Below, one piece after another: positions 42,883 to 49,310 of a stretch of 64,000 bases of DNA. The notes under the pieces are model-generated. The model searched no databases. It worked only from the letters and a program-made list of their open reading frames with translations, and was not told the DNA's origin. Source of the DNA: Thermoanaerobacterales bacterium (GTDB lineage Bacteria; Actinomycetota; Acidimicrobiia; Acidimicrobiales; VFJN01). Location: NCBI GenBank assembly GCA_017577565.1, contig PKRH01000002.1, positions 1 to 64,000 of the forward strand, read 5' to 3'. Both the position numbers and the translations under genes were made by a program. Each line of letters begins with the position of its first letter. Positions within the stretch are counted from its first letter, which is position 1.

Positions 42883-42889
42883 CGAGCCG

Positions 42890-43249
42890 ATGTCCACGCC
42901 TGCGAAGCCCGTCGGTCCCTACACGCCCGTCGTCCGCGCCGGGGGGTGGCTCGTGGTGTCCGGCCAGGTCGGCATCGCCGACGGCCGGCTCGTGCCGGGC
43001 GGCACGGCGGCCGAGACCCGCCAGGCGCTCGCCAACCTCGAGGCCCAGCTGGCCACCGAGGGCGCCTCGCTCACCGACGTCGTGAAGACCACCGTCTTCC
43101 TCCGCCACATGAGCGACTACGCGGTCATGAACGAGGTGTACACCGAGGTCTTCGGCGACCACCGGCCGGCCCGCTCGGCCATCGGCGTGGCCGAGCTCCC
43201 GCTCGGCGCGCTGGTCGAAGTGGAGGCCTGGGCGTGGGTCGGGGGATGA
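42890..43249 (+). CDS. RidA-family (YjgF/UK114) imine deaminase
   Basis: The 119-residue protein has the RidA fold opener KPVGPYTPVVRAGGWLVVSGQVG, then TRQALANLEAQL, VVKTTVFLRHMSDYAVMNEVY and the terminal RPARSAIGVAELPLGALVEVEAWA. Its Arg (PARS) is the family's carboxylate-binding residue. RidA hydrolyses reactive enamine/imine intermediates such as 2-aminoacrylate. It lies just after the [2Fe-2S] fusion gene, but has its own -10 box, so a functional link is not implied. Confidence 0.92.
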   Translation: MSTPAKPVGPYTPVVRAGGWLVVSGQVGIADGRLVPGGTAAETRQALANLEAQLATEGASLTDVVKTTVFLRHMSDYAVMNEVYTEVFGDHRPARSAIGVAELPLGALVEVEAWAWVGG

Positions 43250-43256
43250 TGGGCCC

Positions 43257-43415
43257 ATGCTCGGCGCTGTCCTGATCGTCATCGCGCTCGTCGTCGTCAT
43301 CCCGGTCGCCGTCCTCGTCACCACGCCGATCATCGCCGCCGTCCTCGGCTGGTCGCTGAAGGCCGACGCCGAGCGCCGCCACGAGGGCAGCGAGCTGATC
43401 GCGCTCAACCGCTGA
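43257..43415 (+). CDS. Small single-helix membrane protein (52 aa)
   Basis: An ATG at 43257, 8 bp after the RidA stop, opens a 52-codon frame. A long hydrophobic segment (about residues 3-33, LIVIALVVVIPVAVLVTTPII in part) is followed by a polar tail KADAERRHEGSE ending LIALNR. It is either one long helix or a hairpin. No homologue recognised. Coding status rests on membrane-protein-like composition and close spacing to RidA. Confidence 0.6.
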   Translation: MLGAVLIVIALVVVIPVAVLVTTPIIAAVLGWSLKADAERRHEGSELIALNR

Positions 43416-43448
43416 GCGCCCCGCGGCCGCCGGCAGGGGCGGCCGGGG

Positions 43449-44129
43449 CTACGGGGTCCAGCGCGCCTGGCCGAAGCGGTAGCCGACGGAGCGCACGGTC
43501 TGGATCAGGCTGGCGTGCTCCTCGCCGAGCTTGGCCCGCAGGCGGCGGATGTGGACGTCGACCGTCCGGGCGCCGCCGAAGTACTCGTAGCCCCACACCC
43601 GGCTGAGCAGGACCTCGCGGGTGAACACCCGACCGGGGTGGGCGGCGAGGAACTTCAGCAGCTCGTACTCCATGTAGGTGAGGTCGAGCGGCTGGCCGTC
43701 GATGGCCGCCTGGTAGGTCTCCAGGTTGAGCACCAGGGGGCCGTACTCGACGAGCTCGGGGCGCGTGCCCCGCCCGCTCCGCCAGAACAGGTGCTTCAGC
43801 CGGGCCTCCAGCTCCAGCGGCTGGAACGGGTACAGGCAGAAGTCGTCGAACAGGTCCTCGCGCAGCTCCAGGTCGCCCAGCTGCGCACCGGACACCAACA
43901 GGAGCAGGGGTTCGAGGGGCGTGTCGCGCTTGCGCACCGCCCGGCACAGCCGGAAGGCGCTCTCGGGCTCCTGGACGGCGACGACGACCGCCCCCGACCA
44001 GCCGTCGGCCGGCTCGTCGCGCGCCGCCGCCCGCTCGTCGGCGACGGCCTTCCACGGGTAGCCGGCGAGGTCGAGGGCCTGGGCGAGCTCCGGCGGGGCG
44101 GGGTCCGGGTGGATCAGCAGCGGTTCCAT
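43449..44129 (-). CDS. glnR: GlnR-like orphan OmpR-family nitrogen regulator
   Basis: The 226-residue protein has a receiver-like N-terminal domain without phosphoacceptor: around residues 47-57 the sequence is AVVVAVQEPES where the Asp should follow the strand. The C-terminal OmpR winged helix (about 130-223) is close to GlnR: YMEYELLKFLAAHPGRVFTRE, VWGYEYFGGARTVDVHIRRL and TVRSVGYRF. In actinobacteria GlnR works without phosphorylation and controls glutamine synthetase and ammonium genes. Lying 25 bp after a glnA2-type gene and near two other glutamine synthetases, it is very likely their regulator. Confidence 0.88.
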   Translation of the reverse strand: MEPLLIHPDPAPPELAQALDLAGYPWKAVADERAAARDEPADGWSGAVVVAVQEPESAFRLCRAVRKRDTPLEPLLLLVSGAQLGDLELREDLFDDFCLYPFQPLELEARLKHLFWRSGRGTRPELVEYGPLVLNLETYQAAIDGQPLDLTYMEYELLKFLAAHPGRVFTREVLLSRVWGYEYFGGARTVDVHIRRLRAKLGEEHASLIQTVRSVGYRFGQARWTP

Positions 44130-44154
44130 CGGGTGCCGCTCGCGCGCGTCGGGC

Positions 44155-45498
44155 TCAGAGGCGCGGGAGGTAGCGCTCGAGCTCGAAGGTCGTCACGTGC
44201 GTCTTGTACTCCATCCACTCCTGCCGCTTGTTGCGGATGAACCACTCGAAGACGTGCTCGCCGAGCGCCTCGGCCACCAGCTCGGAGCGCTCCATCTCGT
44301 CGAGCGCGTCCGACAGCGACTGCGGCAGCGTGTCGATGCCCTCGGCGATGCGCTCGGCCTCGGTCAGCTCGTAGAGGTTGACGACGGTCTCGTCGGCCAG
44401 CTCGTAGCCCTTCTCGATGCCCCGCAGGCCCGCGGCGAGGATGACCGAGAACGCCAGGTAGGGGTTGCAGGCCGGGTCGGGCGCCCGGTACTCGAGGCGG
44501 GCGCTCTCGGCCTTGCCCTTCTTGATCGGCGGCACGTTGACGATGACCGACCGGTTGTTGCGGGCCCACGACGTGTAGATCGGCGCCTCGTAGCCGACCA
44601 CCAGCCGCTTGTAGGAGTTCACCCACTGGTTGGTCACCGCGGTGATCTCCCGCGCGTGGTGCAGCAGGCCGGCGATGAACCCGCGGGCGACCTCGGACAG
44701 GCTGTACTCGTCGTCCGGGTCGTAGAAGGCGTTGGTGTCGCCCTCGAACAGCGACACGTGCGTGTGCATCCCCGAGCCCTGCACACCGGTGAGCGGCTTG
44801 GGCATGAAGGTGGCGTGCACGCCGGCCTCCAGCGCGACCTCCTTCACGACGAGGCGGAAGGTCATGACGCTGTCGGCCATCGTCAGCGCGTCGGTGTAGC
44901 GCAGGTCGATCTCGTGCTGGCTGGGCGCGTCCTCGTGGTGGCTGTACTCGACCGGGATGCCCAGGGCCTCGAGGGTGTGGATGGTCCGCTGGCGCAGGTC
45001 GGTCGCCACGTCGGCCGTCGTCAGGTCGAAGTACGACGCCTGGTCGAGAGGCTCGGGGCGCTTCGACGGGTCGCCGTCCGCGAAGTAGAAGAACTCCATC
45101 TCGGGGGCGACGTAGAAGCTGAAGCCCTTCTCGCGCGCCTTCTCGAGGTTGCGGCGAAGGACCTGGCGGGGGTCGCCCTCGAACGGGCTGCCGTCGAGGT
45201 TGATGATGTCGCAGAACACCCGGGCCGACGTGCCGACGCCGTCGGCCCAGGGCAGGATCTCGAAGCTGTTCGGGTCGGGGCGGGCCAGGACGTCCGACTC
45301 CTGCACGCGGGAGTAGCCGTCGATCGACGAGCCGTCGAACCGCATGCCCTCCTCGAACGCGCCCTCGAGCTCGACCGGCGAGATGGCGAAGGACTTCAGC
45401 TGCCCCAGCACGTCCGTGAACCAGAGGCGGATCATCCGCACGCCGCGCTCCTCGACCGTGCGGAGGACGTAGTCTCGCTGGCGCTCCGAGCTCTCCAT
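44155..45498 (-). CDS. glnA2: GlnA2-type (GSI-alpha-like) glutamine synthetase family enzyme
   Basis: The 447-residue protein matches actinobacterial GlnA2: [47 protein letters not shown], the VEYSHHEDAPSQHEIDLRY segment in parts, GSGMHTHVSLFEGD, NSYKRLVVGYEAP and a C-terminus VFEWFIRNKRQEWMEYKTHV. It lacks the 25-residue insertion of GSI-beta. Close relatives include gamma-glutamylpolyamine synthetases, so polyamine use is an alternative to glutamine synthesis. It heads an operon with glnR (25-bp gap). The ATG at 45498 is divergent from GSII across a 152-bp region with the 11-bp array. Confidence 0.9.
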   Translation of the reverse strand: MESSERQRDYVLRTVEERGVRMIRLWFTDVLGQLKSFAISPVELEGAFEEGMRFDGSSIDGYSRVQESDVLARPDPNSFEILPWADGVGTSARVFCDIINLDGSPFEGDPRQVLRRNLEKAREKGFSFYVAPEMEFFYFADGDPSKRPEPLDQASYFDLTTADVATDLRQRTIHTLEALGIPVEYSHHEDAPSQHEIDLRYTDALTMADSVMTFRLVVKEVALEAGVHATFMPKPLTGVQGSGMHTHVSLFEGDTNAFYDPDDEYSLSEVARGFIAGLLHHAREITAVTNQWVNSYKRLVVGYEAPIYTSWARNNRSVIVNVPPIKKGKAESARLEYRAPDPACNPYLAFSVILAAGLRGIEKGYELADETVVNLYELTEAERIAEGIDTLPQSLSDALDEMERSELVAEALGEHVFEWFIRNKRQEWMEYKTHVTTFELERYLPRL

Positions 45499-45550
45499 GG
45501 GGGGAATGGTGGGGCCGCCCCGGGCGGCGCCGCAACCAGGGCCTCGTCGG

Positions 45551-45599
45551 TTCACAGTCCGTTCACACATGGGCAACAGGTCGGAAACTGCCCGTTGCC
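45551..45599. promoter_or_regulatory. GlnR-box-like array: five pentamers at exact 11-bp spacing
   Basis: In the glnA2-GSII divergent region pentamers start at 45551 (TTCAC), 45562 (TTCAC), 45573 (GCAAC), 45584 (GAAAC) and 45595 (TTGCC), each 11 bp apart, one helical turn on the same DNA face. Known GlnR operators are gTnAC-n6-GaAAC repeats with the same pentamer plus 6-nt spacer. The fourth pentamer is a perfect b-site; the others keep the AC core, except the last. The array lies 52-100 bp upstream of the GSII ATG and 53-101 bp from the glnA2 start. Confidence 0.65.
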
Positions 45600-45650
45600 A
45601 GCCTGCGGAGCCGTCACGCTGGACTCGCCGAACGGGAGGATCCACCCCCC

Positions 45651-46655
45651 ATGACGTACAAGGCCGAATACATCTGGATCGACGGCACCGAGCCGACGGC
45701 CAAGCTGCGGTCGAAGACCAAGATCCTGCCGGACGGCGCGGAGATCCCGATCTGGGGGTTCGACGGCTCGAGCACCAACCAGGCCCCGGGTGACCGCTCC
45801 GACTGCGTGCTGCAGCCGGTGTTCACCTGCCCCGACCCGGTGCGGGGCGGCGACAACGTCCTCGTGCTGTGCGAGGTCCTCAACACCGACATGACCCCGC
45901 ACCCCTCCAACACCCGGGCCCGGTGCGTCGAGATCGCCGAGCGCTACAAGGACCACGAGCCCATCTTCGGGATCGAGCAGGAGTACACGTTCTTCAAGGA
46001 CGGCCGCCCGCTGGGCTTCCCGCCCGGCGGCTTCCCCGCCCCGCAGGGCGGCTACTACTGCGGCGTCGGCGCCGACGAGGTGTTCGGCCGCGACATCGTC
46101 GAGGCCCACCTCGACGCCTGCCTGGCCGCCGGCCTGCACATCTCGGGCATCAACGCCGAGGTGATGCCCGGCCAGTGGGAGTTCCAGGTCGGCCCGGTCG
46201 GCGTGCCGCAGGTCGCCGACGAGCTGTGGGTGGCCCGGTGGCTGCTCTACCGGATCGCCGAGGACTTCGGCATCTCGGCCACCCTCGACCCCAAGCCGGT
46301 GAAGGGCGACTGGAACGGCGCCGGCGCCCACACCAACTTCTCGACCAAGGCCATGCGCGAGAGCTACGACGCCGTCATCGCCGCCGCCGAAGCCCTCGGC
46401 AAGGACCCGCAGAAGCACATCGACGGCTACGGGGCCGACATCCAGCACCGCCTCACCGGCATGCACGAGACGGCCCCGTGGGACACCTACAGCTACGGCG
46501 TCTCGAACCGCGGCGCCTCGGTCCGCATCCCCTGGCAGGTCGAGGTCGACCAGAAGGGCTACATCGAGGACCGCCGCCCGAACGCCAACTGCGACCCCTA
46601 CGTCGTCACCCGGCTGCTGGTCGAGACGATCTGCTCGGCCGAGCAGCAGCAGTGA
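45651..46655 (+). CDS. glnII: Glutamine synthetase type II (eukaryote-type)
   Basis: The 334-residue enzyme is the GSII class: AEYIWIDGTEPTAKLRSKTKIL, WGFDGSSTNQAPGDRSDC, PIFGIEQEYTFFK and GGYYCGVGADEVFGRDIVEAHLDACL (in parts). GINAEVMPGQWEFQVGP and GDWNGAGAHTNFSTKAMRE complete the set. GSII is not adenylylated and is found in some actinobacteria and rhizobia. It is the target of the GlnR-like array directly upstream. A 12-bp hairpin follows the stop. Good GGGAGGA precedes the ATG. Confidence 0.95.
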   Translation: MTYKAEYIWIDGTEPTAKLRSKTKILPDGAEIPIWGFDGSSTNQAPGDRSDCVLQPVFTCPDPVRGGDNVLVLCEVLNTDMTPHPSNTRARCVEIAERYKDHEPIFGIEQEYTFFKDGRPLGFPPGGFPAPQGGYYCGVGADEVFGRDIVEAHLDACLAAGLHISGINAEVMPGQWEFQVGPVGVPQVADELWVARWLLYRIAEDFGISATLDPKPVKGDWNGAGAHTNFSTKAMRESYDAVIAAAEALGKDPQKHIDGYGADIQHRLTGMHETAPWDTYSYGVSNRGASVRIPWQVEVDQKGYIEDRRPNANCDPYVVTRLLVETICSAEQQQ

Positions 46656-46687
46656 GCCAACGGCTCTCCTCGCGGGGGGAACCGCGG

Positions 46688-46713
46688 CCGGGGCGCCCGT
46701 GCGGGCGCCCCGG
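46688..46713 (+). terminator. 12-bp hairpin after glnII
   Basis: Positions 46688-46699 and 46702-46713 are perfect reverse complements with a 2-nt nominal loop (effectively 4), 33 nt past the glnII stop. It separates glnII from glnA. Confidence 0.7.
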
Positions 46714-46816
46714 TGGCGCGGACGGGCACCGGGCCGGCCCGCACCGACCGTCCCGGTGCGCCGACACCCCGCTTGTTAGCGTGCGAAGCCGATCGAGCAC
46801 CTGAAGGGAGCAACGA

Positions 46817-48241
46817 GTGCAGGAGCGAACCCCCGACGAGGTCCTGGCACTGATCGCCGACGAGGGCATCGAGGTCGTCGACGTCCGGTTCTGCGACCTG
46901 CCGGGCCTGATGCAGCACTTCTCCGTCCCGGCGTCGCAGCTCACCCCCGAGGTGTTCGAGGAGGGCCTCGGGTTCGACGGCTCGTCGATCCGCGGCTTCC
47001 AGGAGATCCAGGAGTCGGACATGATCCTCATCCCCGACTCCAGCACGGCGTTCGTCGACCCGTTCCGGAGCCGCAAGACGCTGGCCATCCACGCCTACGT
47101 CCACGACCCGCTCACCGGCGAGCCCTACTCCCGCGACCCCCGCTACGTCGCTCGCAAGGCGGCCGAGCACCTGCGGTCGACCGGGATCGCGGACACCTGC
47201 TACATCGGCCCGGAGGCCGAGTTCTTCATCTTCGACGACGTGCGGTTCCACCAGGACCAGCACTCGGCCAGCTACTCGGTCGACTCGGTCGAGGGCGCGT
47301 GGAACACCGGCCGCGACGAGGGCCCGAACCTCGGCTACAAGATCCGGTACAAGGAGGGCTACTTCCCCCTCCCGCCGGCCGACCACTTCCAGGACCTGCG
47401 GACCGAGATGATGATGACGCTCGAGCAGGTCGGCATCGAGGTGGAGCTGCAGCACCACGAGGTCGGCACGGCCGGCCAGGCCGAGATCGACATCCGCTTC
47501 GACGAGCTGAGCCGCATGGCCGACAAGGTCATGCTGTTCAAGTACGTCGTGAAGAACGTGGCCCTGCAGTACGGCAAGACGGTCACGTTCATGCCCAAGC
47601 CGGTGTTCCAGGACAACGGCTCGGGCATGCACACGCACCAGTCGCTGTGGAAGGCGGGCGAGCCGCTGTTCTACGACGAGGCCGGCTACGCCGGGTTCTC
47701 CGACATCGGCCGCTGGTACATCGGCGGCCTGCTGGCCCACGCGCCGGCCGTCCTGGCGTTCACGAACCCGACGACCAACAGCTACAAGCGCCTGGTCCCG
47801 GGCTACGAGGCGCCGGTCAACCTCGTCTACAGCCAGCGGAACCGCTCGGCGGCGGTGCGCATCCCGCTCTACACGCAGAGCCCGAAGGCCAAGCGGCTCG
47901 AGTTCCGGTGCCCCGACCCGTCGTGCAACCCGTACCTGGCGTTCTCGGCGATGCTGATGGCCGGGCTCGACGGGATCAACAACCGGATCGAGCCGCCCGA
48001 CCCGGTCGACAAGGACCTCTACGACCTGCCGCCCGAGGAGCTGGCGCAGGTGCCGCAGGTGCCGGGGTCGCTGGAGGCGGTGCTCGACGCGCTCGAGGAG
48101 GACAACGAGTTCCTCAAGGCCGGCGGGGTGTTCACCGACGACCTCATCGAGACGTGGATCTCGTACAAGCGGACCCACGAGGTCGACGAGATGCGCCTGC
48201 GGCCCCACCCGTGGGAGTTCGCGCTCTACTACGACATCTGA
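46817..48241 (+). CDS. glnA: Glutamine synthetase type I (GSI-beta, adenylylatable)
   Basis: The 474-residue enzyme shows the GSI blocks [57 protein letters not shown] and [19 protein letters not shown] (in parts). It keeps the adenylylation site [10 protein letters not shown] with Tyr about residue 402, the target of GlnE. The longer length relative to GlnA2 reflects the GSI-beta insertion. A TAGCGT box at 46777-46782 gives an about 27-nt leader containing GAAGGGAG before the GTG. It is the main ammonium-assimilating enzyme. Confidence 0.97.
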
Positions 48242-48302
48242 GCCGCCCCGTCGGGCGATCCGGCGTCGCCGGGTCGGCCGTGTGCGGCTGAGGGACGCCG
48301 GG

Positions 48303-48350
48303 GCGCGGGGTGGCCGGGCGCGCGAACTCGCGTGCCCGGCCACCCCGCGC
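48303..48350 (+). terminator. 17-bp (extended 22-bp) hairpin ending glnA
   Basis: Positions 48303-48319 and 48334-48350 are perfect reverse complements (17 bp). The 14-nt loop adds five further pairs, one G-T, leaving an AACT tip. It is the strongest hairpin in the window, 62 nt past the glnA stop, again with no U-tract. Confidence 0.8.
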
Positions 48351-48395
48351 TCGGGCAGGCTCGCGGTGCCCGTCCGTCACCAGTGGAGGCCTCCG

Positions 48396-49310
48396 GTGAC
48401 CGCCCGCGTCCGCCACATCACCTTCGACTGCCGCGAGCCGTACCGCCTCGCCCGGTTCTGGGGTGAGGTGCTGGGGTTCGTCGACGACCCCGACAACCCC
48501 AACGCGCCCGACGACCCCGAGGCCCTGATCGTCGACCCCACCGGCCACCACCCGGGCCTGCTGTTCGTCCCGGTCCCCGAGCCGAAGACGGTGAAGAACC
48601 GGGTCCACCTCGACCTGCGGCCGGAGGTGTCCCGCGACGAGATGGTCGAGCGGGTGCTCGCCCTCGGGGGCACGGTCGTCGCCGACCGCCGGGCCGAGGA
48701 CGGCTCCGGCTGGGTCGTCATGGCCGACCCGGAGGGCAACGAGCTGTGCGTCGAGCGGTCGGCCGCCGAGCGGGACGACGTGCCCGCCCCGATCGACACC
48801 GGCGTCCGGCCCTTCCCGCCGGTGCGCACGGCGGGCGAGCGGGAGCTGCTGACGAGCATGCTCGACTGGTACCGGGACGGCGTCGTCCGCAAGGTCGAGG
48901 GCCTGCGGCAGCACCACGCGGTCGCCCGGCCGCTGCGGTCGGAGACGTCGGTCGCCGGGATCGTGAAGCACCTCGCCCTGGTCGAGGACGGGTGGTTCAG
49001 CATCCGCTTCGCCGGCCGGGCGGGGCAGGAGCTGTGGCCGGACCTCGACGAGGACCGCGAGCCCGACTGGGACTTCCGTAGCGCCCGCGACGAGCCCCTC
49101 GCGCTCAACGTCGCCCGCTACCAGGAGGCGGTCGCCCGGTCCCGGGCCGTCACCGAGGCGCACGAGCTCGACGACGTCTGCGCCGACCCCCACCCCCGCG
49201 GCGAGTTCACGCTGCGCTTCGCGCTCGTCCACATGATCGAGGAGACGGCCCGCCACCTCGGCCACCTCGACATCCTCTGCGAGCACCTCGACGGCCGCAC
49301 CGGGGAGTGA
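48396..49310 (+). CDS. VOC-fold / DinB (DUF664) fusion protein
   Basis: The 304-residue protein joins an N-terminal glyoxalase/VOC domain (about 1-122; VRHITFDCREPYRLARFWGEVLGF, WVVMADPEGNELCVE) and a C-terminal four-helix DinB/DUF664 domain (about 140-304; ELLTSMLDWYRDGVVRKVEGL, SETSVAGIVKHLALVEDGWF, HMIEETARHLGHLDILCEHLDG). DinB folds use three His for metal, and His at SVAGIVKHL and HMIEETARHLGH fits. It is perhaps a thiol-dependent detoxification protein. Its stop overlaps the next start as GTGA. Confidence 0.88.
   Translation: MTARVRHITFDCREPYRLARFWGEVLGFVDDPDNPNAPDDPEALIVDPTGHHPGLLFVPVPEPKTVKNRVHLDLRPEVSRDEMVERVLALGGTVVADRRAEDGSGWVVMADPEGNELCVERSAAERDDVPAPIDTGVRPFPPVRTAGERELLTSMLDWYRDGVVRKVEGLRQHHAVARPLRSETSVAGIVKHLALVEDGWFSIRFAGRAGQELWPDLDEDREPDWDFRSARDEPLALNVARYQEAVARSRAVTEAHELDDVCADPHPRGEFTLRFALVHMIEETARHLGHLDILCEHLDGRTGE

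Follow-up and report, generated by a model that had tools for sequence, protein, structure and literature searches.

An array of four units at an 11-bp pitch, GTTCACAnnnnGTTCACAnnnnGGCAACnnnnnGGAAAC (45550-45588), lies between the two divergent glutamine-synthetase genes glnA2 and glnII in the window, that is, in the whole 64,000-nucleotide (64 kb) stretch analysed here. It is very likely a four-site GlnR operator, through which the regulator encoded at 43449-44129 would activate glnII and would also act on the promoter of the glnA2-glnR operon. This GlnR reading is supported. What we observe is the array itself, how widely it is conserved, where it stands with respect to both genes, that it is found again at amtB, and that the regulator has a DNA-binding domain similar to that of GlnR. 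The features concerned are the following.

43449-44129, minus strand: gene for an orphan OmpR-family regulator, a GlnR relative (best PDB matches 8hih, 8hig and 8hml)
44155-45498, minus strand: second type I glutamine-synthetase-like gene, here "glnA2" (TIGR00653, 478.9 bits, cut-off 429.15; substrate not established)
45506-45511, minus strand: candidate -10 element of the glnA2-glnR operon, CACCAT, 7 nt before the glnA2 start and 38 bp from the array edge, with a putative start site
45550-45560, plus strand: predicted operator unit 1 (GTTCACAGTCC), a-type site TTCAC; A at position 5 in 47/47 aligned arrays, A at position 7 in 43/47
45561-45571, plus strand: predicted operator unit 2 (GTTCACACATG), a-type site TTCAC; TT and A at position 5 in 47/47, A at position 7 in 42/47
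45572-45582, plus strand: predicted operator unit 3 (GGCAACAGGTC), b-type site GCAAC; G in 46, A in 42, A in 42 and C in 26 of 47
45583-45593, plus strand: predicted operator unit 4 (GGAAACTGCCC), b-type site GAAAC; G in 46, A in 41, A in 42, A in 47 and C in 35 of 47
45596-45604, plus strand: putative extended -10 element of the glnII promoter, TGC-CAGCCT; conserved columns at fixed spacing from unit 4
45651-46655, plus strand: glnII, glutamine synthetase type II (NF041605, 677.3 bits, cut-off 500)
46817-48241, plus strand: glnA, type I glutamine synthetase downstream of glnII (TIGR00653, 684.6 bits, cut-off 429.15)

Two further genes were seen in the window. A RidA-like (endoribonuclease L-PSP) gene at 42884-43249 adjoins the regulator gene and faces it, and a single frame at 48282-49310 holds glyoxalase-like and mycothiol-S-transferase (DinB-type) domains, an apparent fusion.

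The sequence from 45550 to 45593 reads GTTCACAGTCC GTTCACACATG GGCAACAGGTC GGAAACTGCCC, then GTTGCCAGCCT. The original prediction had placed pentamers at 45551, 45562, 45573, 45584 and 45595; these read TTCAC, TTCAC, GCAAC, GAAAC and TTGCC, so its coordinates and pitch were right, and the GlnR-type geometry that it proposed, 5-nt sites separated by 6-nt gaps, is what we find. Between 45550 and 45594 self-identity at a lag of 11 is 20/34, against 4-10 matches at the other lags from 5 to 16, and 0.13% of the 45-mers of the window reach this value. This autocorrelation test is weak when taken alone, and the case is carried by conservation. TTCAC-N6-TTCAC occurs a single time on both strands of the window, and a loose four-unit version of the pattern is found at the place of the array only. 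With a weight matrix trained on 42 arrays, all from genomes outside the window's own family, the array scores 55.6 bits and the next place in the window 2.4, so that the array is by far the top place of the window in this matrix scan. A search of the window's own genome (3.43 Mb in 227 contigs, 95.7% complete) with a profile of 47 arrays, the window's own included, gave the array as the only significant site (E=1.6e-13), with one other match at E 0.24. No Rfam match at gathering score was found in 43000-48500, and a riboswitch or RNA leader there was rejected on this ground.

Conservation was assessed upstream of glnII in a set of 118 genomes, which held 71 further glnII places, 60 of them taken and 11 left out. 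Including the window's own, 48 of the 61 regions carry the array at a score of at least 20/27, a threshold set from a consensus drawn by eye; the other 13 fall under it, some keeping only units 1 and 2. The spaced units are thus kept in relatives, one of the two checks on which the original prediction had staked itself. Alignment of 47 of these arrays (G081, one base too short, was left out) gives the consensus GTTCACA for units 1 and 2, nG[A/C]AA(C) for unit 3 and nGAAA(C) for unit 4. A second set consists of 80 named loci selected for their GlnR gene, at least two of which are also in the glnII set; at E up to 0.01 the profile search detects the array in 51 of them. In 34 of these 51, glnA2 is divergent from glnII (17) or from a type I glutamine synthetase (17). 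In 12 (L219, L231, L223, L235, L204, L226, L246, L217, L218, L220, L221 and L236) array, glnII and glnR all run in one direction, and five fit no gene-order class by the motifs used. The alignment of relatives' GlnR loci (A2) omits 7 of 29. Six genomes without a glnII match (L122, L124, L131, L134, L136 and L146) have the array directly before glnA1; in this glnA1 survey, only one strand was read for 4 of the 13 loci (L130, L135, L144 and L145), and it showed no array. The array therefore follows the ammonia-assimilating glutamine synthetase of either type.

The array is conserved across the order and beyond. In a sample of 198 genomes of the phylum, 35 have a profile match at E up to 0.01, and in six genomes (7.9-9.9 Mb) of one genus, probably Streptomyces, the array stands before glnII and a -10-like element keeps the same register. 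This conservation refutes the idea that the array is a chance repeat or low-complexity artefact, whose probability we regard as negligible; furthermore, the matrix gave at most 5.2 bits on simulated sequences (100 of 64 kb each, from a first-order Markov model, scored on one strand), against 55.6 for the array.

Five units had been counted originally; column conservation in the 47 aligned arrays leaves four and makes of the fifth position an extended -10 element. Indeed, its conserved columns are T46 (28/47), G47 (32/47), A50 (33/47) and T54 (41/47), a TGn-nAnnnT pattern of extended -10 type and no pentamer ending in AC. The element overlaps the proposed pentamer at 45595, which we rejected as an operator unit. 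Because it stands at a fixed spacing from unit 4, the glnII promoter would begin where the array ends. This putative promoter has no evident -35 element, the hexamer at 17-bp spacing (45576-45581) being ACAGGT. Four units still leave room for more than one dimer, as had been suggested.

The regulator gene lies about 1.4 kb from the array (44129 to 45550), as first described, and starts 25 bp past the stop codon of glnA2, so the two genes probably form one operon. That the nearby regulator is a GlnR relative is borne out by its best PDB matches and its recognition helix. In phmmer searches of the PDB it matched 8hih (1.2e-40), 8hig (3.3e-39) and 8hml (2.1e-34) before MtrA (2.4e-24) and RegX3 (4.7e-23), which score 53 and 58 bits under 8hih. 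We take these three entries to be GlnR structures, 8hih together with RNA polymerase; their chain titles name only an OmpR-family or transcriptional regulator. The recognition helices of the regulator, GGARTVDVHIRRLRAKLG, and of GlnR, GGTRTVDVHVRRLRAKLG, are nearly identical. Pfam finds only Trans_reg_C, with no match to Response_reg at E up to 0.001, which agrees with an atypical receiver domain as in GlnR. By sequence likeness, then, the regulator is closest to GlnR. One genome raises a doubt. G038 has a strong array at glnA1 next to glnA2 (L131, L306) and another at amtB; its 97% complete assembly yielded no GlnR ortholog, and no GlnR-like frame was seen beside glnA2. Arrays with no detectable GlnR ortholog count against the GlnR reading.

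To see where else the array occurs, we searched 41 genomes with the profile and obtained 101 matches at E up to 5. Fifteen are at amtB (at most 1 kb upstream, same strand), where 0.03 would be expected by chance assuming 3.3 Mb per genome; two of them have E of at most 0.0011 and the other 13 are individually weak (E 0.04 to 1.85). The amtB count used 77 of 80 places and the pstS count 30, fragments and weak ones being left out, and a single match (E=1.8) lies upstream of pstS. From 20 extra match regions, Pfam was run on the frame behind 10. P-II genes stand behind two further matches (L173 and L186) and glnA behind L180 (by Pfam) and L187 (by eye), so that the array recurs at nitrogen-assimilation genes of the clade: amtB, P-II and glutamine synthetase. 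Genes for an NMT1-type binding protein and an MFS transporter are also found behind matches, and several matches precede genes with no known nitrogen role (two ABC ATPases, two Na/H exchangers and an ATP-grasp protein). The window's own amtB was considered as a strong second site and rejected, its best match being weak (18/27) and absent from the profile-search matches. The nitrogen-type arrays before Na/H exchanger genes come from two genomes (L176, E 4.9e-4; L178, E 0.0067). Putative Na+/H+ antiporters are among the S. venezuelae genes reported as induced on nitrogen starvation (PMC3087709).

The same comparison bears on a reading of the array as a PHO box, bound by a phosphate regulator of RegX3/PhoP type through the two GTTCAC direct repeats at 11 bp. 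The Streptomyces PHO box is GTTCACC in 11-nt repeats (PMC4415409, PMC6988585), and the window array is like it in that units 1 and 2 match GTTCAC directly repeated at this pitch. Moreover, Streptomyces PhoP competes with GlnR at glnII (PMC10704036). The window's own genome has a RegX3-like regulator on its pst contig and GTTCACC-N4-GTTCAC upstream of its pstS, and three profile cross-matches in distant genomes (L288, L290 and L296) precede genes that resemble pstS by eye. However, the array departs from the PHO box at position 7 and in units 3 and 4. In the 10 pstS arrays that passed the pair score, out of 21 regions, position 7 is C, T or G and never A, whereas it is A in 43/47 and 42/47 of the aligned arrays (units 1 and 2), and a GnAAC unit 3 and a GAAAC unit 4 are found in 0/10. 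The array thus lacks the GTTCACC repeats seen at pstS in the clade, and 1 of the 101 profile matches is at a listed pstS against 15 at amtB. After this comparison with pstS upstream regions we rejected the PHO box as the main reading and regard it as very improbable. The nitrogen and phosphate codes have the core GTTCAC and a pitch of 11 bp in common, yet can be distinguished.

The own-genome array GTTCACC-N4-GTTCAC upstream of pstS (L035:1501-1640; C199:5227) is on the contig of the RegX3-like regulator, and nitrogen and phosphate arrays of the clade differ at unit position 7, with A in the former and C, T or G in the latter.

Another regulator deserves consideration, since Streptomyces MtrA binds GlnR boxes, including that of glnII (PMC9045223, PMC6988585), and the same four units are contained in SVEN1874, a probe used for EMSA in S. 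venezuelae work (PMC9045223). The array could then be mainly an MtrA site, at which MtrA represses the genes or competes with GlnR. The window's own genome does encode a regulator like MtrA, which is its best PDB match, though its score of 281.3 bits stays under the cut-off of 300. Nevertheless, the regulator gene adjoining the array is a GlnR relative, the pairing of GlnR with the array recurs, though in loci chosen by GlnR, and competition would add to GlnR control rather than replace it. We hold an array that is mainly for MtrA to be improbable. By analogy with Streptomyces, the own MtrA-like and RegX3-like regulators may compete at the array.

As for glnA2, 26 of 34 loci have a -10-like hexamer 5-9 nt upstream of its start, so the glnA2 transcript is probably nearly leaderless. 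We measured the distance from the array edge to this start in 65 divergent loci, 34 from the glnII-region set and 31 named ones with two duplicates removed; 14 of 48 array regions and 6 of 39 named loci, with no recognised glnA2 motif, were left out. The distances are 38-39 (5 loci), 49-54 (30, the window's own being 51), 60-62 (14), 70-74 (3), 81-82 (2), 92-93 (2), 104 (1) and 128-240 (8). In 57 of the 65 loci they thus change in steps of about 11 bp from 38-39 to 104, in seven classes and with no value between classes among loci up to 104 bp; for the eight of at least 128 bp no phasing is claimed. Array-to-hexamer distances (45 loci, the other 20 of the 65 having no -10 that passed the score) are 26 (5), 36-41 (28), 48-50 (9), 58, 70 and 153, and follow the start-codon distances because hexamers were sought only shortly before the start codon. 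The observed phase was matched by 0 of 50,000 random draws with the main class and the value 153 left out, and P is about 0.0016 when each of the four off-centre -10 spacing classes counts as one event; both are guides only, since the loci have common ancestry and the data themselves supplied the phase centre and the period.

We read this spacing as the result of selection for the helix face at the glnA2 promoter, the main alternative being 11-bp insertions and deletions. Under that alternative the operator would serve glnII only, and its spacing to glnA2 would come from slippage or shared ancestry and not from function. The array points to glnII and is itself made of 11-bp repeats, and the spacings are common to related genomes, so that the 57 distances are not independent. 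On the other hand, the step is kept by seven distance classes up to 104 bp, the single-event P value, for which the data themselves gave phase and period, argues in the same direction, and the gap carries no trace of extra units. Indeed, no extra operator units were seen between array and glnA2, and position 5 of a would-be unit 0 is A in 0/30 loci of the main class and 2/14 of the next; extra copies in the gap were therefore rejected. A glnII-only operator is, in our judgement, unlikely. The stepped spacing fits helix-face-dependent control of both divergent promoters, and its conservation suggests that the array serves the genes on both sides, so that the joint control proposed at the outset is plausible and has gained support. 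This whole-turn spacing to glnA2 is apparently new; neither it nor the Acidimicrobiia architecture was found in the literature searched, of partial coverage.

The binding, direction of regulation, start sites and autoregulation that we infer for the four-site GlnR operator can be put together as follows. When nitrogen is limiting, the GlnR-like product of 43449-44129 would bind as two dimers, head-to-tail, along the four 11-bp units and recruit RNA polymerase to the extended -10 promoter, activating glnII and probably glnA behind it. With its other end the same complex would act on the glnA2-glnR promoter, which would start almost at the glnA2 start codon, the array being kept on one helix face. 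As glnR would be the second gene of the glnA2 operon, the loop would include its own regulator. Since the array points away from glnA2, the standard activation geometry is impossible there. We give even chances to a more specific model in which a directional GlnR tetramer array drives two promoters, by class-II-like activation at the front and by helix-face-dependent control of glnA2-glnR at the rear over 38-104 bp. If true, the locus would amount to a nitrogen switch that regulates itself and is conserved in the lineage, in which the distance changes by whole turns and the helical phase is kept. The whole-turn spacing toward glnA2 is a natural mutational series, with which one can ask whether an OmpR-type regulator bound head-to-tail can influence a promoter at its rear.

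The literature searched, of partial coverage, yielded no paper in which Acidimicrobiia and GlnR are both named. The array length and its placement over two classes of glutamine synthetase, put forward as new in the original prediction, have precedents in Streptomyces and M. smegmatis. According to a review (PMC10704036), GlnR boxes are built of a sites and b sites, each of 5 nt and separated by 6 nt, in the classical order a-b-a-b; it also describes GlnR structures of the kind matched by the regulator, and the head-to-tail binding of four GlnR DNA-binding domains to four sites. The window shares the 5-nt sites and 6-nt separation of the canonical S. coelicolor box, and its invariant A is the fourth-position A of the 5-nt box reported as irreplaceable (PMC10704036 section 20). 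Units 1 and 2 fit the a-type form (gTnAC or the variants t/gTAAC and t/gna/cAC), TTCAC matching the S. erythraea a-site form and missing the strict S. coelicolor one at the first base (PMC10704036 Table 2), and GCAAC and GAAAC fit the b-type form (GaAAC or Gc/aAAC). The layout assumed earlier therefore stands for sites and gaps and falls for the implied alternation: the window reads a-a-b-b, in contrast to the a-b-a-b of S. coelicolor. It also has four sites where S. coelicolor amtB has six, in three boxes (PMC10704036 section 20; PMC5826061). In M. smegmatis six divergent gene pairs are under GlnR control, and these pairs and the AC-n9-AC motif are like the window; that system has one motif per binding site, and the available text of PMC3662644 holds no evidence of helical spacing.

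The closest likeness is with S. venezuelae glnII (Sven_1874), for which the sites GTAACACGGGGTTCAC and GCAACCGACGGGAAAT are listed (PMC3087709 Table 3); the EMSA oligonucleotide SVEN1874 joins both into one four-unit array (PMC9045223). As in the window, four sites at an 11-bp pitch lie upstream of glnII, GTAAC-TTCAC-GCAAC-GAAAT (PMC3087709), with GTAAC as unit 1 where the window has TTCAC. This promoter has a GlnR ChIP-chip peak and an EMSA (data not shown in that paper), and its glnII transcript is 291.6-fold lower in the glnR mutant (PMC3087709). Being a GlnR ChIP target with the same a-a-b-b order as the window, it shows that a-b-a-b is not obligatory. Judged by this four-unit match and by the arrays of the phylum sample, the operator is of a known kind and older than this order, and the present locus would extend the glnII operator, for which there is experimental support in Streptomyces, to a large group of actinobacteria that are mostly uncultured.
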